Shown one piece after another: positions 1,906 through 51,239 of a stretch of 64,000 bases of DNA. Position 1 is the first letter of the stretch. Each line of letters begins with the position of its first letter. This DNA comes from Siphonodentalium dalli (Eukaryota > Mollusca > Scaphopoda > Gadilida > Siphonodentaliidae): assembly GCA_032622095.1 (NCBI GenBank), contig CP136061.1, positions 85,906,324 to 85,970,323 on the forward strand. The letters run 5' to 3'. The position numbers were made by a program, and so were the translations under genes. Below the pieces are notes generated by a model. That model did no database searches, had not been told where the DNA came from, and saw nothing but the letters and a program-made list of their open reading frames with translations.

Positions 1906-4900
1906 CACCCCTTATTAAATTGTAACAAAAAGTTGAGTGGCAAGTTCTATGTTAGATATGTTGAAGTCCAGAATCTTTGATTTAAAGTGGATATGTCATA
2001 ATTTGGCTATAACTATCCGCCGAATTCTATAACGGCTCTCCAGCAGTCGGTATAATATCTATAAATAGAAACATTACCTGCAACAGTTAGTCTCGTACCT
2101 GACTCAATCCTACCGATAGAGTCACGTACAGGCTGAAATTGTAAACAATAACAAACCATACACGTGGTCGACGGCGATCACAGAAATGTGCCAACTGTAA
2201 ATATTGATTTAATTACTACTTTTACGACTAATTGTCGCCGAAATTGTCATCGCATTGTGCAAACATATACATTATATGATTTGGGAAATTCTCCGCTTTG
2301 TAGTGACAATGAAATTATACAAAATCGTGCGATCAAGTGCAGCCATTACCTGAATTCGCGCAATACCGGGTATGTCTATTTACGCTGCCGTGTTCAAATT
2401 TACTGGCCCATATCGTATATTTCAAACCCTATTACCCGATAAGATGTCATAAACCATTTATAAACTATAATTTACATGCTGGTTGTTTGATTTGTCATAA
2501 TTTTCACCTGATTACTATTTTATTGTTTATCAGTCAAGTACATTTCGTCTTGTTTTCTGGTCACAGAACCGAAAAATAGGGTCAATAGGTTGTTCACGAC
2601 TTATTTAGGTGAGTGTTCTATAATAGAATGAGTATACTTGCAAGATGAAATGACTATATTTATTTCGATACATTGCAGTTGGGGGGGGGGGGAACCTGCA
2701 GCAAGGTATTCCACGGGGTATCCAGCTAACTGGGACCTTGGCTAACTGGGACCTTGGCTAACTGGAACAAGAGCTAGCAAATGTCTCAAATATTCAGATT
2801 ATCTGTTACTCTCACAACAACTAAAGTATTCAAGTCCAGCATAGTGACTGCCAAAAGCATTTAGTATAATTGAAGTTGCTCCACTAGACTAACAAAAGTG
2901 GTATGGAATAATGCTAGATAATGGGCTGGTTGACCGACCAATCATGAAATAGTTAGAAATTATGGAATTGTGTGTATAATATGCACAATGACGTAGGTTT
3001 GCAGATATCAGCAATTTATAGAATAATATTTCCAATTGCAGCCTGCTAAATGTCCTCTTTATGTATTTATTTTCAAAATATGTCAATTCTAGTTGAATTG
3101 GAGCTTAACAAATGATATTTCATCATTATCATGGATATGTCTACAAAATTGTCAACAATGACCCGAAAGTGAAGATTAAGTTCACTGTCCTGAGATGTTG
3201 TCAGCTTAAAATGTATTACAGCCAAAATAGCCAAAACACATGTTTGGATCATGTAATAGCTTGCAGGGGAAACTGATATCCCAATGGATATGCAGTACAT
3301 GAGATAAGCTGGGAAATTTATAATTTGTAAATTGGATGCATAAACCTTTCATGAAAAACAATTATAGCAGTTCTTTTAGTTTGAAATGTTCCATTTTATA
3401 AGTTATACCTTATAGAGTAAGTTATACTAGTGTTTTTGTGCACCTTTCAGATTTTGATGGGTTAGTACTGTATATGTCCACTTCCATCGATTCATTAGAA
3501 TTTCCATTTAGCAGTGTCCAATTTGACCACCCAGGTAGACCTAGAATACTCTCATGACAAACTCACCTGGAAACTCCAATACATGATTGCATGTATGTGT
3601 GTAATTGTACCGGTATGTGGTACTGCCTATCAGCTAGTTTAAAAAAAAATCTTTATTAAACTTTTTTTCAATTAAATCAGCTTCTGAAACATGGTAAACT
3701 GTCACTTGAACTAGAGCAGATAACTTTCTAGTCATATGAGTGATATCAGTAGGGTTTTATGTGGTGTTAGCAGCTGGTTTTAGACCAAAATTAGTGAAAT
3801 ATTAGGGGTGGGTGACCAAAAATTTGAATAACAAATTATATTTTTTGCAGGTTTGGGGTGGCGGTTCCCCGAAAATATCAGATGCAAAACACGGCATACC
3901 TTCCTGCAAACTTTATATTATAATATACATGTAATATTAAATCAATTGGGATAATGCATGATGAAATTCAACCACTGGGAATCTCAATTTTTAAATGTCA
4001 GGCCAGGTCAGGCTGCTTATTTTCTGTTACATGAACTGCCCTGGTCAATATTAATTCAATACAAAATGTTGATTTAAATACATTAAGTTCTAGTATAATT
4101 GATTAAAGGGAAATTTCTTATTGCTAGTTACCGATAGATGATGATTGCATTATATAAAACTGAGTGGTGAAAGAATTGCAGAATCTGAATTACATAAATA
4201 TTCTTACAAAGGTGCTCAGATTGTGTAGTTTCAAACCTTTTGGTATCGGTAGTTTTTTTTTGCAACTACATGTACTATAAAAGCCGTATCAACGAAAATG
4301 CAGTTACAGCTATATGTCAGCTGTCGCGATATTATTTAACTGCCAAAATATCGTGAAGAAAATAATGTGGGCTGTACACGCATGTAAGATGGTGTCGGTC
4401 GGTACACGCGTTTAAGATGGTGTTGGTTTTCATACCGCGGGTTTGTCCATTAATCGAAATACTGTACAGCACTATAGTGTCAACATGTGGAATCTAACAT
4501 GCCACATCATTAAATTTGCTGTGGGATATTTCCCCTAATTTTGAAGGCTGGTTTCTCCCCCCCCCCGCCTCTAAACATTCCTGTCGCTCGGACAAATGGC
4601 ATCGCTGGTCAGTTTATTTCTTACAGTATATTCAGGTATAAGCATTTCGCTATATACGTCAATTCACCAATGTGCCCCCCCCCAATCCACCACTCTGCAA
4701 CTAGGGATCTACGAATCGGCAATTTACCGCAGATTCGAAATCTGATATCGAATCGGGTTGCCCATGTCAAAATAAATAGCCACCAGTCAGTCCAGGTTTT
4801 ATTATTATATAGCGTCGGGAAATTTCAGTGTACCAAAGTCCTAGTTTGTTGACAGAAAATAGCATCACATGTGCAATTCTCCTTCTCCTGTTGTTTTAGT

Positions 4901-5932: not shown

Positions 5933-5951
5933 CTTGATCATTATCGCCCAC

Positions 5952-7415: not shown

Positions 7416-7682
7416 AGCAAACCTATGTTCTAAGAGCAATGCTCGCCATGTTTCGGAGGCAATAAAATATATAAGAATGCTGCTGTGCCGTACCTCCTAT
7501 ATACATTACAATGGTGTCAGCCAAGCATTTTAAACACAAAAACTTAAAATAATACATGCAGAGTGACTGGTACAAAACAATGTCCTTCCTAGTTCAACAC
7601 ACCATATAATCAATATCGAAGCATATAGCTTAGAAATATGTGCCTTACGGTTTACTGTACTACTGAGTTCATTTTAAATGAG

Positions 7683-9313: not shown

Positions 9314-9715
9314 TGTCACACCCCTTATTAAATTGTATCAAAAAGTTGAGTGGCAAGTTCTATGTTAGATATGTTGAAGTCCAGAATCTTTGATTTAAAG
9401 TGGATATGTCATAATTTGGCTATAACTATCCGCCGAATTCTATAACGGCTCTCCAGCAGTCGGTACAAGAAAACCATAGTCAGAAATGGTAACGCCACCA
9501 AGATCGTATTATTAGCCATAAATATAAATAATAATACAATTATTCTATAAACTAGCTTTCAAATTTTATGCGGGAAATTTGCGTACTTCCATATTTCAAG
9601 TTTTCCCGTTTCTCGTGGCATACATTACTTTCATCAAACTGTCTTCTTTATTACACAAGCTGATAGGCCCGACTTCACCCGGGCTGTTTCACATCTGCTT
9701 TCCGGTGAAAGGTGC

Positions 9716-10235
9716 GATTTGACCTTCAATTGACTATTTCGAAAGTCAAGGTCAGGTCAGGGTCATGATTTGTCCAGTCCAAAACACCCCCACCCGTAGA
9801 AAACTACCCATAGGTATCAAATTTCGTCGAAATCCGTCCGTTTTACCCAACTTGACCTTTAATTAACAATTTTGAAGGTCAAGGTAAGGTCAGAGTCATG
9901 ATTTGACCCGTCCAAAACACCCCCCCCCCCGACAAAAGTACCCATAGGTATCAAATTTCGTCGAAATCTATCCGTTTTATCCGAGTTGACATTTGATTGG
10001 CCATATTGAAGGTCAAGGTCAGGCCGAGGTCACGATTTGACCCGTTCAAAACTCTCCTCAGACCAAAGTATCCCTAGTATCAAATTTCGCCGAAATTTGT
10101 CCGTTTTACCCAAATTGACCTTGTATTGACAGTTTTAAAGGTCAAGGTCAGGTCGGGGTCACGATTTGACCCGTTCAAAACACTTCCCGGACACAAATAC
10201 CCATAGGTATCAAATTACGTTGAAATCTATGGAAA
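9716..10235. repeat. ~130-bp tandem repeat, four units, inside the insertion
   Basis: Units contain TTGACCTT..AATTG, then AAGGTCAAGGTCAGGTC, then GATTTGACCCGT..AAAAC, then CCCATAGGTATCAAATT and GAAATCNNTCCGTTTT. The start landmark recurs at about 9721, 9854, 9988 and 10117. No coding capacity. Confidence 0.85.
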
Positions 10236-10849
10236 GCCGAGGAGGACATGTTGGTTGCTAATTGCTAGATATACGACGCGGTATTTTGAAGGTGTTTCAA
10301 ACTAGGAGATAGAAGTATTCTGCCTTTCAAATGGTGATGAATTATAGTAGTTTATTCAAATTTTATGGCATAAATTGTTATTAAAACCGTATATACTATA
10401 AAAAATTAATGACTCGAAAATTAAGTGGGCCTTTAAACAAAGTCACAATTGCATTTAGGCTCATCTCATACTCGTCCATTCAGCGATATTCTACTGCGCA
10501 GTTTGTTATAGCCTCCAGTATTTATTGAGCGTTATACCCCCAACTGTTATAATTCGCCTTTAGCAGGCGTACTCTTGCCTCAGATTATTGAGATATTAGG
10601 TCACACATAATCACATTAAATCGCATCGTAACATAGCAATTGTGTGGGCTCCTTGGCGTGAATATGTAATGAGAAATAAGGTCATACGTAATGACATTAA
10701 ACTCAAGAAAACCCTCGAAAACAAAACAAAATCACATTTAATGTTTTACGTTATTTCCTTCATAAAAAGAATCTTCGTGATAATGAACCCTCTCGTTACT
10801 TTAGAATATAGAATTAACCTTAAAATAAAAAAAATCTTTGGAACACAGA

Positions 10850-10955
10850 ACCTTCGGAATAACGAACCTTCGGATTGGTGAACCTTCGGAATAGCGAACA
10901 TTCAGAGAAATTTCGGAATAGTGGACCTTCGGGATAGTGAACCTTCGGAATAGAG
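10850..10955. repeat. 15-bp CCTTCGGAATAGNGAA minisatellite
   Basis: About seven degenerate units of CCTTCGGAATAGCGAA occur here, and a related block of four lies at 11387-11445. Both sit in the same position relative to the ~240-bp flanking module repeated at 10683 and 11163. Confidence 0.85.
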
Positions 10956-10970
10956 CCATGCCCCCCAATA

Positions 10971-11170
10971 TTCATATTATATGCCCAGAGTTCAAAGGTA
11001 TGGACCCATAAAATTCTAAACTTGGCCCTTAAAATAATGAACTCCAAATTGGAGCACACACAGAACACCACTTAAGTCAACTGAACCTATGTCATGTCCC
11101 AATGCGGGAGGGTCCATATATACCACAACATTCATAGTATATGCCAAGAATTCAAAGGTATGGGCCCACG
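10971..11170 (-). repeat. Diverged ~160-bp satellite monomers inside the insertion
   Basis: TTCATATTATAT at 10971 and TTCATAGTATAT at 11131 are 160 bp apart. Between them lie, in the same order and orientation as the inverted satellite units at 19448-19867: GGCCCTTAA, AT(G)GTGAAC, CCAAATTGGAGC, TAAGTCAACT, GTCATGT and GGTCCATATA. One complete and one partial monomer are present, clearly diverged but colinear over the full unit. Confidence 0.82.
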
Positions 11171-11253
11171 TAATGACATAAAATCTCAAGAAAACCAGCG
11201 AAAACAAAACAAAATCACATTTAATCTTCTAAGTTAAGTTATTTCCTCCTGTA

Positions 11254-11292
11254 TCTGTATCGGTGTGCGCGCATGATCAGTTCGGATGTGAG
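11254..11292. repeat. GTGTGCGC hairpin in extra segment
   Basis: GTGTGCGC at 11254 and GCGCACAC ending near 11292 form a perfect 8-bp stem with a ~23-base loop. It lies in about 57 bases that interrupt one copy of the internal macro-repeat (TTATTTCC...ATAAAGAATC) and are absent from the other copy near 10752. Confidence 0.6.
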
Positions 11293-11464
11293 CGCACACT
11301 CCATATAAAGAATCTTTGTGAAAATGAACCCTCTCAAATTAGTCTCAATACTTTAAAATATAGAATTAACCTAAAAATAACAAAAACCTTCGGAATAGAG
11401 AACCTTCGGAATAGCGGACCTTCGGGATAGCAAACCTTCATAATAGAAGCATGTCCCCACAATT

Positions 11465-11642
11465 ACACCGGTGACGTAAACACATGTGCCAATCTTAGTT
11501 GTACTCTCGTAATTATCGGTACGATGAAACGGTGACGGAATCTGACGAGGTTTGCCGAATGTACAATCACCCAGTGAATTATCGATCGCCCATGCGATAC
11601 AAAAAAACCAAAAGCAATAAACACCACACTACGGTGGCGTAA
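11465..11642 (+). mobile_element. Terminal tail of the insertion (conserved element end)
   Basis: The tail begins ACACCGGTGACGTAAAC, contains TATCGGTACGAT at about 11515-11526, and ends ACACCACACTACGGTGGCGTAA with CCAC/GTGG pairing. The same ordered parts occur, reversed, at 19296-19447. Confidence 0.7.
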
Positions 11643-14498
11643 TAATATCTATAAATAGAAACATTACCTGCAACAGTTAGTCTCGTACCTGACTCAATCC
11701 TACCGATAGAGTCACGTACAGGCTGAAATTGTAAACAATAACAAACCATACACGTGGTCGACGGCGATCACAGAAATGTGCCAACTGTAAATATTGATTT
11801 AATTACTACTTTTACGACTAATTGTCGCCGAAATTGTCATCGCATTGTGCAAACATATACATTATATGATTTGGGAAATTCTCCGCTTTGTAGTGACAAT
11901 GAAATTATACAAAATCGTGCGATCAAGTGCAGCCATTACCTGAATTCGCGCAATACCGGGTATGTCTATTTACGCTGCCGTGTTCAAATTTACTGGCCCA
12001 TATCGTATATTTCAAACCCTATCACCCGATAAGATGTCATAAACCATTTGTAAACTATAATTTACATGCTGGTTGTTTGATTTGTCATAATTTTCACCTG
12101 ATTACTATTTTATTGTTTATCAGTCAAGTACATTTCGTCTTGTTTTCTGGTCACAGAACCGAAAAATAGGGTCAATAGGTTGTTCACGACTTATTTAGGT
12201 GAGTGTTCTATAATAGAATGAGTATACTTGCAAGATGAAATGACTATATTTATTTCGATACATTGCAGTTGGGGGGGGGGGAACCTGCAGCAAGGTATTC
12301 CACGGGGTATCCAGCTAACTGGGACCTTGGCTAACTGGGACCTTGGCTAACTGGAACAAGAGCTAGCAAATGTCTCAAATATTCAGATTATCTGTTACTC
12401 TCACAACAACTAAAGTATTCAAGTCCAGCATAGTGACTGCCAAAAGCATTTAGTATAATTGAAGTTGCTCCACTAGACTAACAAAAGTGGTATGGAATAA
12501 TGCTAGATAATGGGCTGGTTGACCGACCAATCATGAAATAGTTAGAAATTATGGAATTGTGTGTATAATATGCACAATGACGTAGGTTTGCAGATATCAG
12601 CAATTTATAGAATAATATTTCCAATTGCAGCCTACTAAATGTCCTCTTTATGTATTTATTTTCAAAATATGTCAATTCTAGTTAAATTGGAGCTTAACAA
12701 ATGATATTTCATCATTATCATGGATATGTCTACAAAATTGTCAACAATGACCCGAAAGTGAAGATTAAGTTCACTGTCCTGAGATGTTGTCAGCTTAAAA
12801 TGTATTACAGCCAAAATAGCCAAAACACATGTTTGGATCATGTAATAGCTTGCAGGGGAAACTGATATCCCAATGGATATGCAGTACATGAGATAAGCTG
12901 GGAAATTTATAATTTGTAAATTGGATGCATAAACCTTTCAGTGAAAAACAATTATAGCAGTTCTTTTAGTTTGAAATGTTCCATTTTATAAGTTATACCT
13001 TATAGAGTAAGTTATACTAGTGTTTTTGTGCACCTTTCAGATTTTGATGGGTTAGTACTGTATATGTCCACTTCCATCGATTCATTAGAATTTCCATTTA
13101 GCAGTGTCCAATTTGACCACCCAGGTAGACCTAGAATACTCTCATGACAAACTCACCTGGAAACTCCAATACATGATTGCATGTATGTGTGTAATTGTAC
13201 CGGTATGTGGTACTGCCTCTCAGCCAGTTTAAAAAAAAATCTTTATTAAACTTTTTTTCAATTAAATCAGCTTCTGAAACATGGTAAACTGTCACTTGAA
13301 CTAGAGCAGATAACTTTCTAGTCATATGAGTGATATCAGTAGGGTTTTATGTGGTGTTAGCAGCTGGTTTTAGACCAAAATTAGTGAAATATTGGGGTGG
13401 GTGACCAAAAATTTGAATAACAAATATTTTGTTTTGCAGGTTTGGGGTGGTGGTTCCCCGAAAATACCAGATGCAAAACACGGCATACCTTCCTGCAAAC
13501 TTTATATTATAATATACATGTAATATTAAATCAATTGGGATAATGCATGATGAAATTCAACCACTGGGAATCTCAATTTTTAAATGTCAGGCCAGGTCAG
13601 GCTGCTTATTTTCTGTTACATGAACTGCCCTGGTCAATATTAATTCAATACAAAATGTTGATTTAAATACATTAAGTTCTAGTATAATTGATTAAAGGGA
13701 AATTTCTTATTGCTAGTTACCGATAGATGATGATTGCATTATATAAAACTGAGTGGTGAAAGAATTGCAGTATCTGAATTACATAAATATTCTTACAAAG
13801 GTGCTCAGATTGTGTAGTTTCAAACCTTTTGGTATCGGTAGTTTCTTTTTGCAACTACATGTACTATAAAAGCCGTATCAACGAAAATGCAGTTACAGCT
13901 ATATGTCAGCTGTCGCGATATTATTTAACTGCCAAAATATCGTGAAGAAAATAATGTGGGCTGTACACGCATGTAAGATGGTGTCGGTCGGTACACGCGT
14001 TTAAGATGGTGTTGGTTTTCATACCGCGGGTTTGTCCATTAATCGAAATACTGTACAGCACTATAGTGTCAACATGTGGAATCTAACATGCCACATCATT
14101 AAATTTGCTGTGGGATATTTTCCCTAATTTTGAAGGCTGGTTTCTCCCCCCCCCCGCCTCTAAACATTCCTGTCGCACGGACAAATGGCATCGCTGGTCA
14201 GTTTATTTCTTACAGTATATTCAGGTATAAGCATTTCGCTATATACGTCAATTCACCAATGTGCCCCCCCCCAATCCACCACTCTGCAACTAGGGATCTA
14301 CGAATCGGCAATTTACCGCAGATTCGAAATCTGATATCGAATCGGGTTGCCCATGTCAAAATAAATAGCCACCAGTCAGTCCAGGTTTTATTATTATATA
14401 GCGTCGGGAAATTTCAGTGTACCAAAGTCCTAGTTTGTTGACAGAAAATAGCATCACATGTGCAATTCTCCTTCTCCTGTTGTTTTAGTTATATATAC
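11643..14498. other. AT-rich non-genic body of duplication unit, copy 2
   Basis: Counterpart of copy-1 bases 2053-4909, resuming exactly after the 2.2-kb insertion. It has the same G-run (near 12271), the same 17-bp repeats (near 12310-12358) and the same C-runs (near 14146 and 14264). No gene is supported. Confidence 0.6.
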
Positions 14499-15428
14499 AT
14501 TTCATTGTCTGATAATCATTTGTAACTTTGTGACAAAAAACACGTGGCATTTTTGAAACTATTTCCAAATGTAACTTTGTAACCCTTTTTTTAACAAGGA
14601 TAGGTGAAATATTTTAATTTTTCTAGTTGGAGTTATTCTCTGATAATCATTGGTAACTTTGTAACAAAAAACAAGTGGCATTTTTAAACGACTTCAAATG
14701 TAACTATTCGACAAAAAACACGTCGCATTTTTGAACCGACTTCCAAATGTAACTTTGTAACCCTTTTTAAACAAGGATGGGTCAAATATTTTCATCTTTC
14801 TAGTTGGAGTAATTCTCTGATAATGATTGGTAACTTTGTGACAAAAAACACGTGGCATTTTTGAAACGACTTCCAAATGTAACTATGTGACAAAAAACAC
14901 GTCGCATTTTTTAAACGACTTCCAAATGTAACTTTGTAACCCTTTTTAAACAAGGATGGGTGAAATATTTTCATTTTTATAGTTGGAGTAATTCTCTGAT
15001 AATCATTGGTAACCTTGTAAAAAAAAACAAGTGGCATTTTTAAACGACTTCCAACTGTAACTATGCGACAAAAACACGTCGCATTTTTGAACCGACTTCC
15101 AAATGTAACTTTGTAACCCTTTTTAAACAAGGATGGGTGAAATATTTTCATTTTTATAGTTGGAGTAATTCTCTGATAAGCATTAGTAACTTTGTGACAA
15201 AAAAACATGTCGCATTTTTGAAACGACTTCCAAATGTAACTTTGTAACCCCTTTTAAACAAGGATAGGTGAAATATTTTAATTTTTCTAGTTGGAGTTAT
15301 TCTCTGATAATCATTGGTAACTTTGTGACAAAAAACACGTGGCATTTTTTAAACGACTTCCAAATGTAACTATGTGACCAAAAACACGTCGCATTTTTTA
15401 AACAACTTCCAAATGTAACTTTGTAACA
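14499..15428. repeat. Minisatellite with 130/180-bp spacing, copy 2
   Basis: Same family as in copy 1, but about 90 bp shorter. The landmark spacing runs approximately 129, 177, 179, 177, 134, so at least one short unit has been lost or converted since the duplication. Confidence 0.88.
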
Positions 15429-15457
15429 CATGCCGGCTCTTGATCATTATCGCCCAC

Positions 15458-15599
15458 CTTGAAAACTGGATAATAACACATAAACTACCATAACAACTTT
15501 CAAGTGGGACATTGGCTGGTGTGTTATCAGGGTCGCCCCAGTCAACATACATGCAAATACCTCTATTCGAAGTTGGATTTATCAAAATAAACACACCGT
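15458..15599 (-). CDS. Candidate exon 2 of unknown gene, copy 2
   Basis: Duplicate of the candidate exon at 5952-6093, with the same open frame, donor (CAAG/GTGGGC) and weak acceptor. No frame-disrupting change is visible relative to copy 1. Confidence 0.3.
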
Positions 15600-15769
15600 C
15601 TTTCAAGTCGAGATATGTACATAATATAGTTTTGTTTAATTTTGAGTGATTTATCGAAAGCTTTCATGAGGGCGTGGTGTTCTCTTGTAGATATCTACAT
15701 ATAACGATACATCGTATGATTGTGCGCTTTTTTATGTCTGATTGCCCACTGGATTGCCTGCCAATATCC

Positions 15770-15960
15770 CCGTATGTATGTATCAATATGTGCATATATG
15801 TATGCGAGGGTGGGTGTGTGTATGTACGTGTGTATATTTGTATGTATGCGTGTGCATTCGTGTGTATGTAGGTGCGTGTACGTATGTATGTATGTATATG
15901 TATATATGTATGCATGTGTATGGGTGTATGTTTTATATATATGAATGTATGTATGTATGG
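15770..15960. repeat. TATG-type microsatellite, copy 2
   Basis: Counterpart of the copy-1 microsatellite with small differences in repeat interruptions, for example more uninterrupted GTAT units near 15884. Confidence 0.9.
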
Positions 15961-16262
15961 CCTGTTGTATGTACAACCAACAATCTGCTTACATACCTGT
16001 CTATCTATAAACGTGCATGACTGTCTCTTCTAATCTCTGGCTGACTTATATGTCTACCACATAGTTTAATGCTTATTTATTTATTTATTTGATTTTTGTA
16101 TTGTATTGTGTAAACATTCCAATTATATTGTAAAAGCTCTTCGTTAACGGAGGATATAAAGGATATATATATATTTCTTGCACCAAATCTGGACATATCT
16201 ATCTCCGGAGAACCCCATTTTGAACCTTTTTCCTAAAGTGTATACATGTAGAAATTACTCAC

Positions 16263-16374
16263 AAATCAGGTTAATAATATGATATGATGTAAGATCCGGC
16301 GAAATAACGACTAATCCTGTTCCAATAAATGCGATAAACATCAAAAGGAAACCAAGCAATCTCCATTTTGACAT
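16263..16374 (-). CDS. Candidate first coding exon with signal peptide/TM, copy 2
   Basis: Duplicate of 6752-6863: ATG at 16374, the same 37 codons with a hydrophobic core, and the same GTGAGTAA donor. It is intact and identical in reading to copy 1. The CpG-rich leader region is also retained, with small indels. Confidence 0.35.
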
Positions 16375-16483
16375 CACGAAATATGAACACGAAACCGTGT
16401 GCGCCAGTTATAACGACTAACCTGGGCGCGCTTACGCGAACGCAAGATTGTATTGAGTTCAAGATCTTATTGATAGCAAACCC

Positions 16484-16928
16484 AAGCCTGCAAATAGCGT
16501 GTCTGTCATTTGCAGAATGAGGTCCACAGAAGGTGAGTTTAGTGATGCTATCCCGCACAGCGGGCTAGCATCACCAAATTCACCCTATGTGGACCTCATT
16601 CTGCTTAGGCCTCATCTTCTGGGAAGTGTCTATAGTATCAAATTAACATTGTTTTTAGTTACATTTCCCTTCTAGGAAGTTTCTATATCCCCTAATTTGC
16701 AGAAGATAAAATTCATAATTGATGTGCCCAATGGGTGAACATCACCAACTTCAGTTGGGGAACTTCAATCTGATCCTAGCTCTGCCATAGCAGTTGAGGG
16801 CCTTAGCAGAATGAGGTCCCCAGAGGGTGAATTTGGTGATGCTAGCCCGCTGTGCGGGATAGCATCACTATATTCACCCTCTGAGGACCTCATTCTGCAA
16901 ATGACAGACACGCTATTTGCAGGCTTGA
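16484..16928. mobile_element. 445-bp hairpin-rich MITE-like element, copy 2
   Basis: Same terminal repeats and two internal palindromes (about 16513-16605 and 16807-16899) as copy 1, with a few substitutions in the hairpin loops. It marks the right end of duplication unit 2. Confidence 0.8.
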
Positions 16929-16976
16929 GCAAACCTATGTTTCGGAGGCATACAATATATAACATTACAACTCTAT

Positions 16977-17112
16977 CCACACTATCCACACTCTAATGAT
17001 CGAGGGGAGCCTGCGGCGCATAAGATAATTATACCTATTATTTATGTGGGTAGTAACCTCTATAGATAGATATGGCAAGAAACGTGAGCAAAACGTTAAG
17101 GGGGTATGTTTT
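16977..17112. other. Short unique stretch between duplication unit and 83-bp satellite
   Basis: Contains three TATCCACAC-type repeats and ATATGGCAAGAAACGTG (about 17068-17084). The latter recurs inside the satellite at about 17798. No gene seen. Confidence 0.6.
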
Positions 17113-19295
17113 TGTCCCATGTAGAAAGCCTTGATACAGAGCGGGACAAGCGTTACAGAAGCTGACAAAATATGTTTTTATTTCTCATCGTTATCTGCGT
17201 CTCAGTAGTAACCCTTGATACAGAGCGATACAAGCGTTACAGAATCTTACAGAGTTGATTTTATTTCTAGTGATTATCTGCGTCCCAGTAGTAACCCTTG
17301 ATACAGAGCGATACAAGCGTTACAGAATCTTACAGAGTTGATTTTATTTCTAGTGATTATCTGCGTCCCAGTAGTAACCCTTGATACAGAGCGATACAAG
17401 CGTTACAGCAGTTAAAAATCGTTTTTATTTCTCGTCGTTATCTGCGTCCCAGTAGTTACCCTTGATACAAAGCGATACAAGCGTTACAGCAGTTAAAAAA
17501 TCGTTTTTATTTCTAGTGATTATCTGCGTCCCAGTAGTAACCCTTGATACAGAGCGATACAAGCGTTACAGAATCTTACAGAGTTGATTTTATTTCTCAT
17601 CGTTATCTGCGTCCCAGTAGTTACCCTTGATACAGAGCGATACAAGCGTTACAGAAGTTTAAGGAATCGTTTTTATTTCTCATCGTTATCTGCGTCCCAG
17701 TAGTAACCCTTGATACAGAGCGATACAAGCGTTACAGCAGTTAAAAAATCTTTTTTATTTCTAGTGATTATCTGCGTCCCAGTAGTAACCCTTCATATAT
17801 GGCAAGAAACGTGGTCAAAATTTTTTGGGTATTCGTATTTTTAGGTGCTAACTGCTACATCAAAGTAAAGTCAAAGATATCTATTGCCGGAAAAGCGGTT
17901 TCGTCTTTTGGTTTCCGAACTGTACATTTGTTTACATATTTTCCCGATTCAAAATGGATGACCAAACGCGAAATCTGGAGAAAAGGGAGTTTAAAACTCG
18001 ATTCTAGCAGTGCTATGCTGCTAAACTGCTGAGAATTAAAAAACAAGATCGTTTTTATTTCTAGTGATTATCTGCGTCCCAGTAGTAACCCTTGATACAG
18101 AGCGATACAAGCGTTACAGCAGTTAAAAATCGTTTTTATTTCTCGTCGTTATCTGCGTCCCAGTAGTAACCCTTGATACAAAGCGATACAAGCGTTACAG
18201 CAGTTAAAAATTCGTTTTTATTTCTAGTGATTATCTGCGTCCCAGTAGTAACCCTTGATAAAGAGCGATACAAGCGTTACAGAAGTTTAAGGAATCGTTT
18301 TTATTTCTCATCGTTATCTGCGTCCCAGTAGTAACCCTTGATACAGAGCGATACAAGCGTTACAGCAGTTAAAAAATCGTTTTTATTTCTAGTGATTATC
18401 TGCGTCCCAGTAGTAACCCTTGATACAGAGTGATACAAGCGTTACAGCAGTTAAAAATAGTTTTTAATTCTCGTCGTTATCTGCGTCCCAGTAGTAACCC
18501 TTGATACAGAGCGATACAAGCGTTACAGCAGTTAAAAAATCGTTTTTATTTCTAATCGTTATCTGCGTCCCAGTAGTAACCCTTGATACAGAGCGATACA
18601 ACCGTTACAGCAGTTAAAAAATCGTTTTTATTTCTAGTGATTATCTGCGTCCCAGTAGTAACCCTTGATACAGAGCGATACAAGCGTTACAGCAGTTAAA
18701 AATTCGTTTTTATTTCTGATCGTTATCTGCGTCTCAGTAGTAACCCTTGATACAGAGCGATACAAGCGTAACAGAATCTTACAGAGTTGATTTTATTTCT
18801 AGTGATTATCTGCGTCCCAGTAGTAACCCTTGATACAGAGCGATACAAATGTTACAGAATCTTACAGAGTTGATTTTATTTCTAGTGATTATCTGCGTCC
18901 CAGTAGTAACCCTTGATACAGAGCGATACAAGCGTTACAGCAGTTAAAAAATCGTTTTTATTTCCAGTGATTATCTGCGTCTCAGTAGTAACCCTTGATA
19001 CAGAGCGATGCAAGCGCTACAGCAGTTAAAAAATCGTTTTTATTTCTCATCGTTATCTGCGCCCCAGTAGTAACCCTTGATACAGAGCGATACAAGCGTT
19101 ACAGCAGTTAAAAAATCGTTTTTATTTCTCATCGTTATCTGCGTCCCAGTAGTAACCCTTGATACAGAGCGATACAAGCGTTACAGCAGTTAAAAATCGT
19201 TTTTATTTCTAGTGATTATCTGCGTCCCAGTAGTAACCCTTGATACAGAGCGATACAAGCGTTACAGAATCTTACAGAGTTGATTTTATTTCTCA
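17113..19295 (+). repeat. 83-bp satellite array, about 24 units
   Basis: The landmark ACCCTTGATACAGAGCGATA recurs every 81-87 bp (17211, 17294, 17377, 17458 and so on). The unit contains ATCTGCGTCCCAGTAGTA, then ACCCTTGATACAGAG, then GATACAAGCGTTACAG. It comes in two main 3' variants: CAGTTAAAAAATCG and AATCTTACAGAGTTGA. The first unit is diverged. The array is interrupted at 17794-18048 and ends where an element end begins (TTACGCCAC at 19296). Confidence 0.95.
17794..18048 (+). other. Non-satellite interruption with coding-like stretch
   Basis: It starts with ATATGGCAAGAAACGTG, matching the DNA just left of the array (17068). A frame is open from 17799 to 18032 (77 residues). In another frame an ATG in a good context (AAAATGGATG, about 17953) opens 17 codons before a TAG and stays open after it. 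The protein is not recognised. It could be captured flanking DNA including an old 5' exon. Confidence 0.45.
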
Positions 19296-19447
19296 TTACG
19301 CCACATGTGGTGTATCTAGTTTCTGTGATTTTGATATTGTGTGGTGGACGGGGCGTATGCATTCTTGGAGAATTTTTGTACCTTACTCAATCGTACCGAT
19401 AGAATCTCGTAGATGCCGAAATTGTAAAGTTAACGCCACCGGTGTAT
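19296..19447 (-). mobile_element. Element end bordering the 162-bp array
   Basis: Read on the minus strand: ACACCGGTGGCGTTAAC (19445-19429), ATCGGTACGATTGAG (about 19399-19385), then ACACCACATGTGGCGTAA ending at 19296, followed by host TGAGAAATAAAA of the 83-bp satellite. An uninterrupted satellite unit reads CGATGAGAAATAAAA, so the insertion lies between A and T. This is the same order of parts as the tail at 11465-11642. Bases 19377-19430 also resemble 2093-2148. Confidence 0.7.
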
Positions 19448-19867
19448 AATATGTTTAGATATGTCCAGATATGTCGCAACGTTCATATTATATCCCAAGA
19501 ATCAAGATATTTAGACTCCTACGCATTTGCTATGATGGGCCCTTAACATGGTGAACCCCAAATCGGAGCCCGTGCAGTGAAAACCTAAGTCAACTATATA
19601 CTAGTCATGTACGGATGCAGGACGGTCCAGATACGTCCCAAAGTTCATATTATATTTCCAGAATCCAGATATTTAGATTCCTACCCATTCTCTATGATCA
19701 GCCCTTAACATGGTGAACCCCAAATTGGAGCCCGTGCTGTGAAAACCTAAATCAACTATATATTAGTCATATAGGGATGCAGGACGATTCATATATGTCC
19801 CAACGTTCATATTATACCGCAAGAATCCAGATATTTAGACTCCTACCCATTCTCTATGATGGGCCCT
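19448..19867 (-). repeat. 162-bp satellite, inverted block (about 2.6 units)
   Basis: Monomers run opposite to the rest of the array (GGGCCCTTAACATGGTGAAC orientation). The switch occurs at 19861-19867, inside the palindromic GGGCCC core, where the inverted unit ends and a forward unit begins at CATCCGTACATGAC. Confidence 0.95.
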
Positions 19868-22239
19868 CATCCGTACATGACTAATATATAGTTGACTTAG
19901 GTTTTTACCGCACGGGCTCCAATTTGGGGTTCACCATGTTAAGGGCCCATCATGGCAAATGCGTAGGAGTCTAAATATCTTGATTCTTGTGATATAATAT
20001 GAACGTTGGGACATATATGAATCGTCCTGCATGAGTACATGACTAATATATAGTTGACATAGGATTTCACCGCACAGGCTCCAATTTGGGGTTCACCATG
20101 TTAAGGGCCCATCATAGAGAATGGGTAGGAATCTAAATATCTGGATTCTTGCGGTATAATATGAACGTTGGGACATATATGAATTGTCCTGCATCCCTAT
20201 ATGACTAATATATAGTTGACTTAGGTTTTCACCGCACATGCTCCGATTTGTGGTTCACCATGTTAAGGGTCCATCATAGCAAATGCGTAGGAGTCTAAGT
20301 ATCTTGATTCTTGGGATATAATATGAACGTTGGGAAATATATGAATCGTCCTGCATCAGTACATGACTAATATATAGTTGACTTAGGGTTTCACCGCACA
20401 GGCTCCAATTTGGGGTTCACCATGTTAAGGGCCCATCATAGAGAATGGGTAGGAGTCAAAATATCTGGATTCTGGAAATATAATATGAACGTTGGGACAT
20501 ATATGAATCGTCATGCATCCCTATATGACTAATATATAGTTGACTTAGGGTTTCACCGCACGGGCTCCAATTTGGGGTTCACCATGTTAAGGGCCCTTCG
20601 CAGAGAATGGGTAGGGGTCTAAATATCTGGATTCTTGCGATATAATATGAACGTTGGGACATATATGAATCGTCCTGCATCCGTACATGACTAATATATA
20701 GTTGACTTAGGGTTTCACCGCACGGGCTCCATTTTGGGGTTCACCATGTTAAGGGCCCATCATAGACAATGGGTAGGAGTCAAAATATCTGGATTCTGGA
20801 AATATAATATGAACGTTGGGACATATCTGGACCGTCCTGCATACATACATGACTAATATATAGTTGACTTAGGGTTTCACCGCACGGGCTCCGATTTGGG
20901 GTTCACCATGTTAAGGGCCCATCATAGCAAATGCGTAGGAGTCTAAATATCTTGATTCTTGCGGTATAATATGAACGTTGGGACATATATGAATCGTCCT
21001 GCATCCCTATATGACTAATATATAGTTGATTTAGGATTTCAACGCACGGGCTCCAATTTGGGGTTCGCCATGTTAAGGGCCCATCATAGAGAATGTGTAG
21101 GAGTATAAATATCTGGATTCTTGCGGTATAATATGAACGTTGGGACATATATGAATCGTCCTGCATCCCTATATGACTAATATATAGTTGATTTAGGTTT
21201 TCACCGCACAGGCTCCAATTTGGGGTTCACCATGTTAAGGGCTGATCATAGAGAATGGGTAGGAATCTAAATATCTGGATTCTGGAAATAGAATATGAAC
21301 TTTGGGACATATCTGGACCGTCCTGCATCCCTACATGACTAATATATAGTTGATTTAGGATTTCACCGCAAGGGCTCCGATTTGGGGTTCACCATGTTAA
21401 GGGCCCGTCATAGAGAATGGGTAGGAGTCTAAATATCTGGATTCTTGGGATATAATATGAACGTTGGGAAATATATGAATCGTCCTGCATCAGTACATGA
21501 CTAATATATAGTTGACTTAGGGTTTCACCGCACAGGCTCCAATTTGGGGTTCACCATGTTAAGGGCCCATCATAGAGAATGGGTAGGAGTCAAAATATCT
21601 GGATTCTGGAAATATAATATGAACGTTGGGACATATATGAATCGTCCTGCATCCCTATATGACTAATATATAGTTGACTTAGGGTTTCACCGCACGGGCT
21701 CCAATTTGGGGTTCACCATGTTAAGGGCCCTTCGCAGAGAATGGGTAGGGGTCTAAATATCTGGATTCTTGCGATATAATATGAACGTTGGGACATATAT
21801 GAATCGTCCTGCATCCCTATATGACTAATATATAGTTGATTTAGGATTTCAACGCACGGGCTCCAATTTGGGGTTCGCCATGTTAAGGGCCCATCATAGA
21901 GAATGTGTAGGAGTATAAATATCTGGATTCTTGCGGTATAATATGAACGTTGGGACATATATGAATCGTCCTGCATCCCTATATGACTAATATATAGTTG
22001 ATTTAGGTTTTCACCGCACAGGCTCCAATTTGGGGTTCACCATGTTAAGGGCTGATCATAGAGAATGGGTAGGAATCTAAATATCTGGATTCTGGTAATA
22101 GAATATGAACTTTGGGACATATCTGGACCGTCCTGCATCCCTACATGACTAATATATAGTTGATTTAGGATTTCACCGCAAGGGCTCCGATTTGGGGTTC
22201 ACCATGTTAAGGGCCCGTCATAGAGAATGGGTAGGAGTC

Positions 22240-24500
22240 TAAATATCTGGATTCTTGGGATATAATATGAACGTTGGGACATATATGAATCGTCCTGCAT
22301 CCGTACATGACTAATATATAGTTGACTTAGGTTTTCACCGCACATGCTCCGATTTGTGGTTCACCATGTTAAGGACCCATCATAGTAAATGCGTAAGAGT
22401 CTAAATATCTTGATTCTTGGGATATAATATGAATGTTGGGACATATATGAATCGTACTGCATCCGTACATGACTAATATATAGTTGACTTAGGTTTTCAC
22501 CGCGCGGGCTCCGATTTGGGGTTCACCATGTTAAGGGTCCATCATAGCAAATGCGTAGGAGTCTAAGTATCTTGATTCTTGGGATATAATATGAACGTTG
22601 GGAAATATATGAATCGTCCTGCATCAGTACATGACTAATATATAGTTGACTTAGGGTTTCACCGCACGGGCTCCAATTTGGGGTTCACCATGTTAAGGGC
22701 CCATCATAGAGAATGGGTAGGAGTCAAAATATCTGGATTCTGGAAGTATAATATGAACGTTGGGACATATATGAATCGTCCTGCATCCCTATATGACTAA
22801 TATATAGTTGACTTAGGGTTTCACCGCACGGGCTCCAATTTGGGGTTCACCATGTTAAGGGCCCTTCGCAGAGAATGGGTAGGGGTCTAAATATCTGGAT
22901 TCTTGCGATATAATATGAACGTTGGGACATATATGAATCGTCCTGCATCCGTACATGACTAATATATAGTTGACTTAGGGTTTCACCGCACGGGCTCCAT
23001 TTTGGGGTTCACCATGTTAAGGGGCCATCATAGAGAATGGGTAGGAGTCAAAATATCTGGATTCTGGAAATATAATATGAACGTTGGGACATATCTGGAC
23101 CGTCCTGCATACATACATGACTAATATATAGTTGACTTAGGGTTTCACCGCACGGGCTCCGATTTGGGGTTCACCATGTTAAGGGCCCATCATAGCAAAT
23201 GCGTAGGAGTCTAAATATCTTGATTCTTGCGGTATAATATGAACGTTGGGACATATATGAATCGTCCTGCATCCCTATATGACTAATATATAGTTGATTT
23301 AGGATTTCAACGCACGGGCTCCAATTTGGGGTTCGCCATGTTAAGGGCCCGTCATAGAGAATGGGTAGGAGTCTAAATATCTGGATTCTTGGGATATAAT
23401 ATGAACGTTGGGACATATATGAATCGTCCTGCATCCGTACATGACTAATATATAGTTGACTTAGGTTTTCACCGCACATGCTCCGATTTGTGGTTCACCA
23501 TGTTAAGGACCCATCATAGTAAATGCGTAAGAGTCTAAATATCTTGATTCTTGGGATATAATATGAATGTTGGGACATATATGAATCGTACTGCATCCGT
23601 ACATGACTAATATATAGTTGACTTAGGTTTTCACCGCGCGGGCTCCGATTTGGGGTTCACCATGTTAAGGGTCCATCATAGCAAATGCGTAGGAGTCTAA
23701 GTATCTTGATTCTTGGGATATAATATGAACGTTGGGAAATATATGAATCGTCCTGCATCAGTACATGACTAATATATAGTTGACTTAGGGTTTCACCGCA
23801 CGGGCTCCAATTTGGGGTTCACCATGTTAAGGGCCCATCATAGAGAATGGGTAGGAGTCAAAATATCTGGATTCTGGAAATATAATATGAACGTTGGGAC
23901 ATATATGAATCGTCCTGCATCCCTATATGACTAATATATAGTTGACTTAGGGTTTCACAGCACGGGCTCCAATTTGGGGTTCACCATGTTAAGGGCCCTT
24001 CGCAGATAATGGGTAGGGGTCTAAATATCTGGATTCTTGCGATATAATATGAACGTTGGGACATATATGAATCGTCCTGCATCCGTACATGACTAATATA
24101 TAGTTGACTTAGGGTTTCACCGCACGGGCTCCATTTTGGGGTTCACCATGTTAAGGGCCCATCATAGAGAATGGGTAGGAGTCAAAATATCTGGATTCTG
24201 GAAATATAATATGAACGTTGGGACATATCTGGACCGTCCTGCATACATACATGACTAATATATAGTTGACTTAGGGTTTCACCGCACGGGCTCCGATTTG
24301 GGGTTCACCATGTTAAGGGCCCATCATAGCAAATGCGTAGGAGTCTAAATATCTTGATTCTTGAGGTATAATATGAACGTTGGGACATATATGAATCGTC
24401 CTGCATCCCTATATGACTAATATATAGTTGATTTAGGATTTCAACGCACGGGCTCCAATTTGGGGTTTGCCATGTTAAGGGCCCATCATAGAGAATGTGT
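22240..24500 (+). repeat. Seven-monomer (1,134-bp) block duplication
   Basis: The rare variant AAGGACCCATCATAGTAAAT occurs at 22371 and 23505, 1,134 bp (7 x 162) apart, with matching neighbours such as ATCGTACTGCATCCG and GCGCGGGCTCC. A shorter 810-bp (5-monomer) repetition links 20903-21166 with 21713-21976. Confidence 0.85.
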
Positions 24501-24579
24501 AGGAGTATAAATATCTGGATTCTTGCGGTATAATATGAACGTTGGGACATATATGAATCGTCCTGCATCCCTATATGAC

Positions 24580-27500
24580 TAATATATAGTTGATTTAGGG
24601 TTTCACCGCACGGGCTCCAATTTGGGGTTCACCATGTTAAGGGCTGATCATAGAGAATGGGTAGGAATCTAAATATCTGGATTCTGGAAATAGAATATGA
24701 ACTTTGGGACATATCTGGACCGTCCTGCATCCGTACATGACTAATATATAGTTGACTTAGGTTTTCACCGCACGGGCTCCGATTTGGGGTTCACCATGTT
24801 AAGGGTCCATCATAGCAAATGCGTAGGAGTCTAAATATCTTGTTTCTTGGGATATAATATGAACGTTGGGACATATATGAATCGTCCTGCATCAGTACAT
24901 GACTAATATATAGTTGACTTAGGGTTTCACCGCACGGGCTCCAATTTGGGGTTTACCATGTTAAGGGCCCATCATAGAGGATGGGTAGGAGTCTAAATAT
25001 CTTGATTCTTGCGGTATAATATGAACGTTGGGACATATATGAATCGTCCTGCATCCCTATATGACTAATATATAGTTGATTTAGGATTTCACCGCACGGG
25101 CTCCAATTTGGGGTTCACCATGTTAAGGGCCAATCATAGAGAATGGGTAGGATTCTAAATATCTGGATTCTTGAGATATAATATGAACGTTGGGACATAT
25201 ATGAATCGTCCTGCATCCGCACATGACTAATATATAGTTGACTTAGGGTTTCACCGCACGGGCTCCGATTTGGGAATCACCATGTTAAGGGCCAATCATA
25301 GAGAATGGGTAGGAGTCTAAATATCTGGATTCTTGGGATATAATATGAACGTTGGGACATATATGAATCGTCCTGCATCCCTATATGACTAATATATAGT
25401 TGACTTTGGGTTTTACCGCCCGGGCTCCAATTTGGGGTTCACCATGTTAACGGCCCATCATAGCAAATGCGTAGGAGTCTAAATATCTTGATTCTTGCGG
25501 TATAATATGAACGTTGGGACATATATGAATCGTCCTGCATCCCTATATGACTAATATATAGTTGATTTAGGATTTCAACGCACGGGCTCCAATTTGGGGT
25601 TCAGCATGTTGAGGGCCCATCATAGAGAATGGGTATGAGTCTAAATATCTGGATTCTTACGGTATAATATGAACGTTGGGGCATATATGAATCGTCCTGC
25701 ATCCCTATATGACTAATATATAGTTGATTTAGGTTTTCACCGCACAGGCTCCAATTTGGGGTTCACCATGTTAAGTGCCCATCATAGAGAATGGGTAGGA
25801 GTCAAAATATCTGGATTCTGGAAATATAATATGAACGTTGGGACATATCTGGACGGTCCTGCATCCATACATGACTAATATATAGTTGACTTAGGTTTTC
25901 ACCGCACAGGCTCCTATTTGGGGTTCACCATGTTAAGGGCCCATCATAGCAAATGCGTAGGATTCTAAATATCTGGATTCTTGGGATATAATATGAACGT
26001 TGGGAAATATATGAATCGTCCTGCATCCGTACATGACTAATATATAGTTGACTTAGGGTTTCACTGCACGGGCTCCAATTTGGGGTTCACCATGTTAAGG
26101 GCCCATCATAGAGAGTGGGTGTCTAAATATCTTGATTCTTGCGATATAATATGAACGTTGGGACATATATGAATCGTCCTGCATCCCTGTATGACTAATA
26201 TATAGTTGATTTAGGATTTCACGCACGGGCTCCGATTTGGTGTTCACCATGTTAAGGGACCATCATAGCAAATGCGTAGGAGTCTAAATATCTGGATTAT
26301 TGGGATATACTATGAACGTTGGGACATATATGAATCGTCCTGCATCCGTACATGACTAATATATAGTTGACAGGGTTTCACCGCACGGGCTCCAATTTGG
26401 TGTTCACCATGTTAAGGGCCCTTCATAGAGAATGGGTAGGAGTCTAAATATCTGGATTCTTGCTATATAATATGAACGTTGGGACATATATGAATCGTCC
26501 TGCATCCGTACATGACTAATATATAGTTGACTTAGGGTTTCACTGCACGGGGTCCAATTTGGGGTTCACCAAGTTAATGGCCCATCATAGAGAAAGGGTA
26601 GGAGTCTAAATATCTGGATTCTTGCTATATAATATGAACGTTGGGACATATATGAATCGTCCTGCATCCCTGTATGACTATTATATAGTTGATTTAGGAT
26701 TTCACCGCACGGGCTCCGATTTGGTGTTCACCATGTTAAGGGCCCATCATAGCAAATGCGTAGGAGTCTAAATATCTGGATTATTGGGATATACTATGAA
26801 CGTTGGGACATATATGAATCGTCCTGCATCCGTACATGACTAATATATAGTTGACAGGGTTTCACCGCACGGGCTCCAATTTGGTGTTCACCATGTTAAG
26901 GGCCCTTCATAGAGAATGGGTAGGAGTCTAAATATCTGGATTCTTGCGATATAATATGAACGTTGGGACATATATGAATCGTCCTGCATCCGTACATGAC
27001 TAATATATAGTTGACTTAGGGTTTCACTGCACGGGCTCCAATTTGGGGTTCACCAAGTTAATGGCCCATCATAGAGAAAGGGTAGGAGTCTAAATATCTG
27101 GATTCTTGCTATATAATATGAACGTTGGGACATATATGAATCGTCCTGCATCCGTACATGACTAATATATAGTTGATTTAGGATTTCACCACACGGGCTC
27201 CGATTTGGGGTTTACCATGTTAAGGGCCCATCATAGCAAATGCGTAGGAGTCTAAATATCTGGATTCTTGGGTTATAATATGAACGTTGGGACATATATG
27301 AATCGTCCTGCATCCGTACACGACTAATATATAGTTGACTTAGGTTTTCGCCACACGGGCTCAGATTTGGGGTTTACCATGTTAATTAAGGGTCCATCAT
27401 AGCAAATGCGTAGGAGTCTAAATATCTTGATTCTTGGGATATAATATTAACGTTGGGACATATATGAATCGTCCAGTATCAGTACATGACTAATATATAG

Positions 27501-30500
27501 TTGACTTAGGGTCTCACTGCACGGGCTCCAATTTGGGGTTCACCATGTTAAGGGCCCATCATAGAGGATGGGTAGGAGTCTAAATATCTTGATTCTTGCG
27601 GTATAATATGAACGTTGGGACATATATGAATCGTCCTGCATCCCTATATGACTAATATATAGTTGATTTAGGATTTCAACGCACGGGCTCCAATTTGGGG
27701 TTCGCCATGTTAAGGGCCCATCATAGAGAATGTGTAGGAGTATAAATATCTGGATTCTTGCGGTATAATATGAACGTTGGGACATATATGAATCGTCCTG
27801 CATCCCTATATGACTAATATATAGTTGGTTTAGGTTTTCACCGCACGGGCTCCAATTTGGGGTTCACCATGTTAAGGGCTGATCATAGAGAATGGGTAGG
27901 AATCTAAATATCTGGATTCTGGAAATAGAATATGAACTTTGGGACATATCTGGACCGTCCTGCATCCCTACATGACTAATATATAGTTGATTTAGGATTT
28001 CACCGCACGGGCTCCGAGTTGGGGTTCACCATGTTAAGGGCCCGTCATAGAGAATGGGTAGGAGTCTAAATATCTGGATTCTTGGTATATAATATGAACG
28101 TTGGGACATATATGAATCGTCCTGCATCCGTACATGACTAATATATAGTTGACTTAGGTTTTCACCGCACGGGCTCCAATTTGGGGTTCACCATGTTAAG
28201 GGCCCATCATAGAGGATGGGTAGGAGTCTAAATATCTGGATTCTTGCGGTGTAATATGAACGTTGGGACATATATGAATCGTCCTGCATCCCTATTCGAC
28301 TAATATATAGTTGATTTAGGATTTCACCGCACGGGCTCCGATTTGGGGTTCACCATGTTAAGGGCCCTTCATAGAGAATGAGTAGGAGTCTAAATATCTG
28401 GATTCTTGGGATATAATATGAACGTTGGGACATATATGAATCGTCCTGCATCCGCAGATGACTAATATATAGTTGACTTAGGGTTTCACCGCACGGGCTC
28501 CAATTTGGGGTTCACCATGTTAAGGGCCCATCATAGCAAATGCGTAGGAGTCTAAATATCTTGATTCTTGCGGTATAATATGAACGTTGGGACATATATG
28601 AATCGTCCTGCATCCCTATATGACTAATATATAGTTGATTTAGGGTTTCACCGCACGGGCTCCAATTTGGGGTTCACCATGTTAAGGGCTGATCATAGAG
28701 AATGGGTAGGAATCTAAATATCTGGATTCTGGAAATAGAATATGAACTTTGGGACATATCTGGACCGTCCTGCATCCGTACATGACTAATATATAGTTGA
28801 CTTAGGTTTTCACCGCACGGGCTCCGATTTGGGGTTCACCATGTTAAGGGTCCATCATAGCAAATGCGTAGGAGTCTAAATATCTTGTTTCTTGGGATAT
28901 AATATGAACGTTGGGACATATATGAATCGTCCTGCATCAGTACATGACTAATATATAGTTGACTTAGGGTTTCACCGCACGGGCTCCAATTTGGGGTTTA
29001 CCATGTTAAGGGCCCATCATAGAGGATGGGTAGGAGTCTAAATATCTTGATTCTTGCGGTATAATATGAACGTTGGGACATATATGAATCGTCCTGCATC
29101 CCTATATGACTAATATATAGTTGATTTAGGATTTCACCGCACGGGCTCCAATTTGGGGTTCACCATGTTAAGGGCCAATCATAGAGAATGGGTAGGATTC
29201 TAAATATCTGGATTCTTGAGATATAATATGAACGTTGGGACATATATGAATCGTCCTGCATCCGCACATGACTAATATATAGTTGACTTAGGGTTTCACC
29301 GCACGGGCTCCGATTTGGGAATCACCATGTTAAGGGCCAATCATAGAGAATGGGTAGGAGTCTAAATATCTGGATTCTTGGGATATAATATGAACGTTGG
29401 GACATATATGAATCGTCCTGCATCCCTATATGACTAATATATAGTTGACTTTGGGTTTTACCGCCCGGGCTCCAATTTGGGGTTCACCATGTTAACGGCC
29501 CATCATAGCAAATGCGTAGGAGTCTAAATATCTTGATTCTTGCGGTATAATATGAACGTTGGGACATATATGAATCGTCCTGCATCCCTATATGACTAAT
29601 ATATAGTTGATTTAGGATTTCAACGCACGGGCTCCAATTTGGGGTTCAGCATGTTGAGGGCCCATCATAGAGAATGGGTATGAGTCTAAATATCTGGATT
29701 CTTACGGTATAATATGAACGTTGGGGCATATATGAATCGTCCTGCATCCCTATATGACTAATATATAGTTGATTTAGGTTTTCACCGCACAGGCTCCAAT
29801 TTGGGGTTCACCATGTTAAGTGCCCATCATAGAGAATGGGTAGGAGTCAAAATATCTGGATTCTGGAAATATAATATGAACGTTGGGACATATCTGGACG
29901 GTCCTGCATCCATACATGACTAATATATAGTTGACTTAGGTTTTCACCGCACAGGCTCCTATTTGGGGTTCACCATGTTAAGGGCCCATCATAGCAAATG
30001 CGTAGGATTCTAAATATCTGGATTCTTGGGATATAATATGAACGTTGGGAAATATATGAATCGTCCTGCATCCGTACATGACTAATATATAGTTGACTTA
30101 GGGTTTCACTGCACGGGCTCCAATTTGGGGTTCACCATGTTAAGGGCCCATCATAGAGAGTGGGTGTCTAAATATCTTGATTCTTGCGATATAATATGAA
30201 CGTTGGGACATATATGAATCGTCCTGCATCCCTGTATGACTAATATATAGTTGATTTAGGATTTCACGCACGGGCTCCGATTTGGTGTTCACCATGTTAA
30301 GGGACCATCATAGCAAATGCGTAGGAGTCTAAATATCTGGATTATTGGGATATACTATGAACGTTGGGACATATATGAATCGTCCTGCATCCGTACATGA
30401 CTAATATATAGTTGACAGGGTTTCACCGCACGGGCTCCAATTTGGTGTTCACCATGTTAAGGGCCCTTCATAGAGAATGGGTAGGAGTCTAAATATCTGG

Positions 30501-32672: not shown

Positions 32673-32679
32673 TATATAG

Positions 32680-51236: not shown

Positions 51237-51239
51237 GTA

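Follow-up and report, generated by a model that had tools for sequence, protein, structure and literature searches.

Introduction

The Helitron2 group of transposons was defined by Bao and Jurka in 2013 by a 5′ T, a 5′ inverted repeat 0–2 bp from the end within a hairpin, and a 3′ repeat 20–30 bp inside the element, upstream of a hairpin (PMC3627910). Here we examine a 64,000-nucleotide stretch of the scaphopod mollusc Siphonodentalium dalli (assembly GCA_032622095.1, contig CP136061.1, positions 85,906,324 to 85,970,323), hereafter the window, which holds a 2,177-bp insertion and a 31-kb array of a 162-bp satellite flanked by an 83-bp satellite. Very probably, the insertion is a rolling-circle element with Helitron2-type ends, the left edge of the array is a broken related element, and the 162-bp array comes from another dispersed element.

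The insertion shares with Helitron2 the 5′ T, the 5′ repeat in a hairpin and the 3′ repeat before the 3′ hairpin, and lacks a target duplication, as do most Helitron2 copies (PMC3627910). It differs in its target, which is TYA/T (the slash marks the insertion point) instead of the TTTT/T or TTTT/C of the Chlamydomonas example (PMC3627910), and in that a RepHel partner was not found among 18 of 151 RepHel matches searched. The Cg_HINE elements of the Pacific oyster, which are non-autonomous Helentrons, likewise have subterminal inverted repeats, a hairpin, zero target duplication and tandem cores, the latter of about 140–180 bp, but their target is TT and their monomer orientation is constant, whereas it is reversed at the tail in the window (PMC7492417); furthermore, the tandem core of our insertion has a 134-bp unit and is distinct from the 162-bp array. 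DINE-1 and the HINEs resemble the group described here in their subterminal inverted repeats, 3′ hairpin, central repeats and great copy number without coding capacity, but differ in their TT target and terminal sequences (PMC4067079). The FoHeli Helitron2 elements of Fusarium have asymmetric inverted repeats with hairpins and extra internal termini, and the TNAT/T target of FoHeli1/2 is close to the TYAT found here; unlike in our case, autonomous copies are known, and the end sequences differ (PMC5148889).

Results

The insertion is a real, recent, non-autonomous mobile element. Two uninterrupted copies of its flanks lie in the window, both with the site CGGTA/TAATATCT and zero duplication, and the joint is ambiguous by one base, as a single A can be assigned to host or element. 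The genome searched comprises 2.23 Gb in 9 contigs, the window being part of one. Each end of the insertion was searched genome-wide, with the best 40 of 1,224 and of 1,164 candidates scored, and all 40 were 100% identical in each case; our set of copies consists of the loci with both ends among these matches and therefore samples the young ones. The 15 further full-length loci fetched have the same termini as the window copy, with A before CAAG and a sharp end at GCGTAA in 16 of 16 copies, followed by T in 15 and by C in one (L012). Their lengths range from about 2.16 to 3.56 kb owing to internal duplications (L010–L012). In L010, 289 bp of the 5′ (GCGTAA) end are doubled head to tail, with a terminus at the seam. 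A preliminary description of this locus had proposed a mobile element without target duplication, and the two empty sites bear this out; no target-site duplication was seen in the fetched copies or at a retroelement-like site described below, and no flanking homology past GCGTAA in the fetched copies of this family or of the second family found at the array. A host segment of the window is itself present in three copies of about 97–99% identity (1–16941 and 51233–55151), of which two form a tandem pair and the third lies past the array.

The sequence of the element lies on the minus strand, where it starts with TTACGCCACC and finishes with GGTGGCGTTACCATTTCTGACTATGGTTTTCTTG. Its first bases fold to a hairpin containing the 5′ inverted repeat. 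The 3′ inverted repeat lies about 24 nt from the 3′ end, with the hairpin ACCAT–8 nt–ATGGT between it and the terminus, 7 nt from the latter. An 8-nt exact inverted match links the 5′ end to the 3′ subterminal stretch and was equalled by 40 of 20,000 shuffles. Folds of six elements from four families gave a 5′ hairpin in five of the six and a 3′ hairpin in five of the six, and the ends common to the group are TTACG.. at 5′ and the motif CAAGAAAANCATAGTC.. at 3′ (Table 1). The Helitron2 features present are the 5′ T, the 5′ inverted repeat 0–2 bp from the 5′ end, the hairpin at the 5′ end, the 3′ repeat ahead of a hairpin and zero target-site duplication, the last seen at the two empty sites and at the retroelement-like site at 25.93 Mb of contig 1 (C1:25.93 Mb). 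A hairpin end and a Helitron-like character had been noted before, with the remark that the group might be an unusual one, which fits the folds and the Helitron2 termini. The direction, however, had been reversed: the GGTGGCGTAA hairpin was taken as the 3′ end and belongs to the 5′ end at 11642, which shows that the direction of a terminal hairpin can be mistaken.

Table 1. Coordinates of the elements, termini and satellites in the window
Feature	Position	Strand	Basis
Non-autonomous Helitron2-type element, 2,177 bp	9466..11642	-	True 5′ end 11642, 3′ end 9466; empty sites and 15 further copies with the same ends
Empty site 1, CGGTA/TAATATCT	2052..2053		Uninterrupted flank copy
Empty site 2, CGGTA/TAATATCT	53007..53008		Uninterrupted flank copy
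5′ end TTACGCCACC.. with 5′ terminal hairpin including asymmetric terminal inverted repeat	11621..11642	-	Fold
3′ asymmetric inverted repeat (TAACGCCACC on +)	9490..9499	-	Inverted match and fold
Conserved 3′ terminus, hairpin ACCAT..ATGGT at 9473–9490	9466..9489	-	24-mer count and fold
134-bp tandem core, 3.9 copies, unrelated to the 162-bp satellite	9719..10230		Repeat analysis
Sole satellite-like stretch of the insertion, 191 bp, 69% identical to the consensus of the 162-bp satellite	10964..11154	+	
'Tail' of the preliminary description: internal ACACCGGTGACGT motif through to the 5′ end	11465..11642		
83-bp satellite, target of the broken element	17114..19295	+	Repeat analysis and unsplit site
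Broken 5′ end (163 nt) of second Helitron2-type family, within the 83-bp satellite	19296..19458	+	97% over 163 bp to family copies, homology stops
2.5 satellite monomers, opposite in orientation to the main array	19463..19867		Repeat analysis and comparison of tails
Main array of the 162-bp satellite (about 191 monomers), lacking the carrier's own flanks	19868..50869		Repeat analysis and junction comparisons
83-bp satellite, orientation opposite to the left side	50868..51238	-	Repeat analysis

The target of the group is TYA/T, or TYAT/ under the one-base ambiguity. Over the fetched loci, all 36 5′ flanks have T at position −3, 34 have a pyrimidine (T or C) at −2 and 35 have A at −1, and the 3′ flank is T in 23 of 23 ends; these counts take in several duplicated or internal copies (e.g. 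L010, L021 and L060). The A/T split suggested in the preliminary description is upheld by these flanks, within the same ambiguity. This target is unlike the TT of the Helentrons and HINEs (PMC4067079, PMC7492417), and insertion between A and T is a Helitron1 trait. The insertion could accordingly be viewed as a canonical Helitron1 with degenerate 5′-TC and CTRR-3′ ends, with which its zero duplication and the canonical RepHel frames plentiful in the genome would also agree. We consider this very unlikely: whichever way the element is read, its termini are TTACG.. and ..TTCTTG rather than TC and CTRR, and asymmetric inverted repeats with a 5′ hairpin are Helitron2 features (PMC3627910).

Genome-wide counts show that these ends are abundant. 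The 3′-terminal 24-mer of the insertion has 7,255 exact matches compared to none for a reversed control, and the 5′ end with its target has 3,800 matches compared to 125. Within the first 33 Mb of contig 1, a same-strand 3′ motif lies at most 10 kb from 38 of the 46 listed 5′ ends (0.015 expected for each), giving elements of 1.4–6.8 kb, and tails of the GGTGG and TGTGG types have one common 3′ motif. A Helitron2-type group numbering thousands of copies now has exact termini and a target rule. In the window, the 3′-terminal motif occurs at 9466 only, three other loose matches being unrelated. Elsewhere, two distant places each have a pair of 3′ motifs separated by exactly 545 bp (C1:24,448,305/24,448,850 and C1:28,181,866/28,182,411).

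Membership in Helitron2 rests on these termini, because a RepHel frame enclosed by the element ends was not found. RepHel frames are plentiful: the PF14214 profile search, with 150 of 457 candidates scored, gave 151 matches, including frames of 2,300–2,900 codons, in pieces of which we recognized PIF1 helicase, an OTU domain in one, and an endonuclease domain above the Pfam cut-off in one and below it in one. The neighbourhoods sampled were downstream pieces of 10 loci, upstream pieces of 14 and upstream pieces of 5 more, 18 distinct loci altogether. Among these 18, one near-perfect 3′ motif lies near a RepHel frame (L031), in an orientation that places the frame outside the element. Loose end matches near RepHel loci in L029, L033 and L046 were judged to be chance. 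None of the inspected elements (L018, L020, L025, L057–L060 and L001) contains a RepHel frame; L057 has reverse-transcriptase-like frames, by eye a nested retroelement. Helentron ends were not definable from pairs of copies. The failure to find a RepHel copy with these ends at the 18 loci would be expected of a different class without target duplication, such as another HUH or a tyrosine recombinase transposon, but both hairpins and the asymmetric inverted repeats are in Helitron2 positions, making such a class distinctly unlikely.

The left edge of the array carries the tail of a second Helitron2-type family. As the preliminary description had recognized, this tail splits the 83-bp satellite, at GATAACGA/TGAGAAAT, and the unsplit site is present in neighbouring units (10 matches on the plus strand and 1 on the minus strand, one mismatch allowed). 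In the second family, 14 of 14 tails (the window copy and, from a search with the 152-bp tail, 13 in 12 loci) end in GCGTAA, with T as the next base in all 14. Homology to the window extends for about 163 nt and then stops, the other copies running into at least 2.5 kb of other DNA. Host DNA at the site of the 2,177-bp insertion (2095–2145, 11685–11735 and 53050–53100) resembles the second-family tail over 51 bp at 84–86%; because of this resemblance, the insertion may sit inside an older relative.

The preliminary description had read the insertion and the array edge in the same order, about 160-bp monomers, then ACACCGGTG, then the tail. In that view, the 31-kb array would have grown from the core of this Helitron-like family, and the hairpin tail would be its 3′ end. 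A tail with the expected terminus does touch the array, the insertion contains a stretch resembling the monomer, and elements of the group vary in internal repeat length (L011 and L012). However, that stretch is the only one in the insertion (E about 1e-15) and stops 310 bp short of 11465, and the tandem core there is of another kind. At the array, the common order fails as well. The 2.5 monomers on the tail side are inverted relative to the other 191, and the array adjoins at its right end an 83-bp satellite of opposite orientation; since a simple insertion would leave collinear flanks, these inversions tell against one. The junction of tail and array is covered solely by the window copy among the 150 of 336 matches listed (best 40 of 875 candidates scored). 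None of the 12 other second-family loci has 162-bp monomers beside the tail, and the 3′ end is absent at the array. Together with the other, conserved flanks of the arrays described next, this makes an expanded core of the insertion's family extremely improbable. The second tail family was also considered as the carrier of the array and was dropped, as the 12 other loci sampled lack monomers beside it and the junction was not seen elsewhere among the listed matches.

The 162-bp array is the length-variable core of another dispersed element, as follows from its conserved junctions, variable span and abrupt left start. The junction of array and right flank was found at ≥94% in 21 places and that of left flank and array at ≥98% in 10, the element's own copies included, and the array spans 8.7 to 26.7 kb in the 10 paired loci. 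Homology of the carrier begins abruptly about 2.9 kb left of the array: when the best 40 of 254 candidates were scored, every one of the 39 other matches began within query bases 26–29 (27 at base 26, 6 at 28 and 6 at 29). The sharp left end, TCCTTCAGTTAGCC at L071:26 (C1:75,861,225), reads TCC, like a canonical Helitron; the preceding base is G in the copy seen, and 12 of the 39 other matches start 2–3 bases later. Neither the left nor the right flank of the carrier is present in the window, and a terminus of the insertion's group was found at 0 of 7 array edges in four other loci, two further loci (L063 and L065) lying wholly inside arrays and contributing no edge. A lack of fixed flanks had also been considered for the arrays but was given up when the conserved left and right junctions were found. 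Thus, of the proposal that the insertion's family seeded the array, it holds that a mobile element carries the satellite, but the carrier is a different element with junctions of its own; the expectation of tails beside about 160-bp monomers elsewhere found no support.

The order of sequences beyond the array is also conserved. Three loci (C1:75.87, C4:161.17 and C3:23.68 Mb) have the same 2.66 kb (>99% identical) next to the array, then four 83-bp units and a Helitron2-type 3′ end, which sits in the satellite 2.96 kb from the array. The element at C1:75.87 Mb is 94% like the window insertion and ends at the same satellite position, and the order there reads array, 2.66 kb, 83-bp satellite, element, satellite. 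The order from array to element 3′ end also occurs in L069 and L070. On both sides of 19867 in the window, the array gives way to 83-bp satellite, the two sides mirroring each other and each following the order of the other loci. Missing on the left are the 2.66 kb and all of the satellite-borne element but 163 nt; the right side lacks the 2.66 kb as well. Such a layout would result from an inverted duplication accompanied by deletions.

The 83-bp satellite has been hit repeatedly, by at least three families: one satellite base is split by the broken element of the window, by the family of L060 and by the element of L072. A query of element, unit and element (best 40 of 2,570 candidates scored; rows counted by eye among 100 matches) gave 33 rows with a 3′ end at the satellite site and 10 further rows with a 5′ end only; junctions of element, unit and element were among the matches at C2:70.90, C4:49.76 and C6:133.74 Mb. 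At C1:25.93 Mb (L060 and L066; C1:25,929,450–25,942,400), three Helitron2-type elements are bridged by two single 81-bp satellite units in a block of 10.8 kb, both outer ends of which are exact element termini against a retroelement-like coding repeat, so that the outer flanks are not satellite. Elements 1 and 2 are 99.2% identical, and element 3 matches them at about 94–98% in pieces; an independent copy (L059) matches the elements of the block at 97–98%, similar to the level of the third element. When the outer flanks are joined, they form a TCA/T site that keeps an open reading frame, and 26 of 29 genome matches cross the joint uninterrupted, the best being 98% identical along the full 256 bases. 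The TCA/T site occupied by the block is therefore ordinary in other respects.

The block appears to have moved as one unit. Most simply, it would have arisen by one transposition that started from the 5′ end of the third element, passed two 3′ ends and stopped at the last, and such read-through would carry the two satellite units as cargo. Helraiser bypasses its own 3′ end and carries flanking DNA along (PMC4778049), and tandem Helitrons are already known (PMC5148889); in the portions available to us of the literature on tandem or concatemeric Helitrons and on bivalve Helitron satellites, from a limited open-licence search, no description of satellite-bridged multimers was met. Alternatively, a single insertion may have been enlarged later by recombination with a satellite-borne series, and alternating ends of the kind seen in such series do appear in the match listing at C2:70.90 Mb. 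Whether Helitron2-type elements move satellite DNA as bridged multimers is, in our judgement, evenly balanced. If they do, this would be a direct route for rolling-circle transposition to copy and scatter satellite units, because different families repeatedly hit the same satellite base; a bridged multimer would be a natural case of Helraiser-type read-through with satellite cargo, and satellite dispersal would become directly testable.

Discussion

Several observations weigh against our interpretation of the insertion and the array. In the predicted folds, family L057 has no 5′ hairpin and L058 no 3′ hairpin. The TT target of the Helentrons and HINEs is replaced by TYA/T. An autonomous copy was not found at the 18 of 151 RepHel loci searched, mostly on one side or over a few kilobases only. 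The 191 bp that the insertion has in common with the 162-bp satellite (69%) suggest that the two have some history in common. Finally, the history of deletion and inversion at the window array is a reconstruction rather than an observation.

For a non-autonomous element with Helitron2-type ends, a RepHel protein supplied in trans would nick at the 5′ end, one strand would be displaced and copied up to the 3′ hairpin signal, and the copied strand would be joined after TYA in the target. At the array, a related element would once have occupied its usual position in the adjacent 83-bp satellite. Subsequent deletion and inversion would have left 163 nt of its 5′ end and placed them next to the array, which we infer because the junction of tail and array is unique and inverted. 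The locus distinguishes transposons with a satellite as their core from transposons that insert into satellites, two ideas that are often merged.

A further satellite resemblance was noted in the array carrier. Positions 4880–4970 of L068, before the 83-bp satellite, are 83–84% like the 130/177-bp satellites of the window (4915–5922 and 14504–15428).

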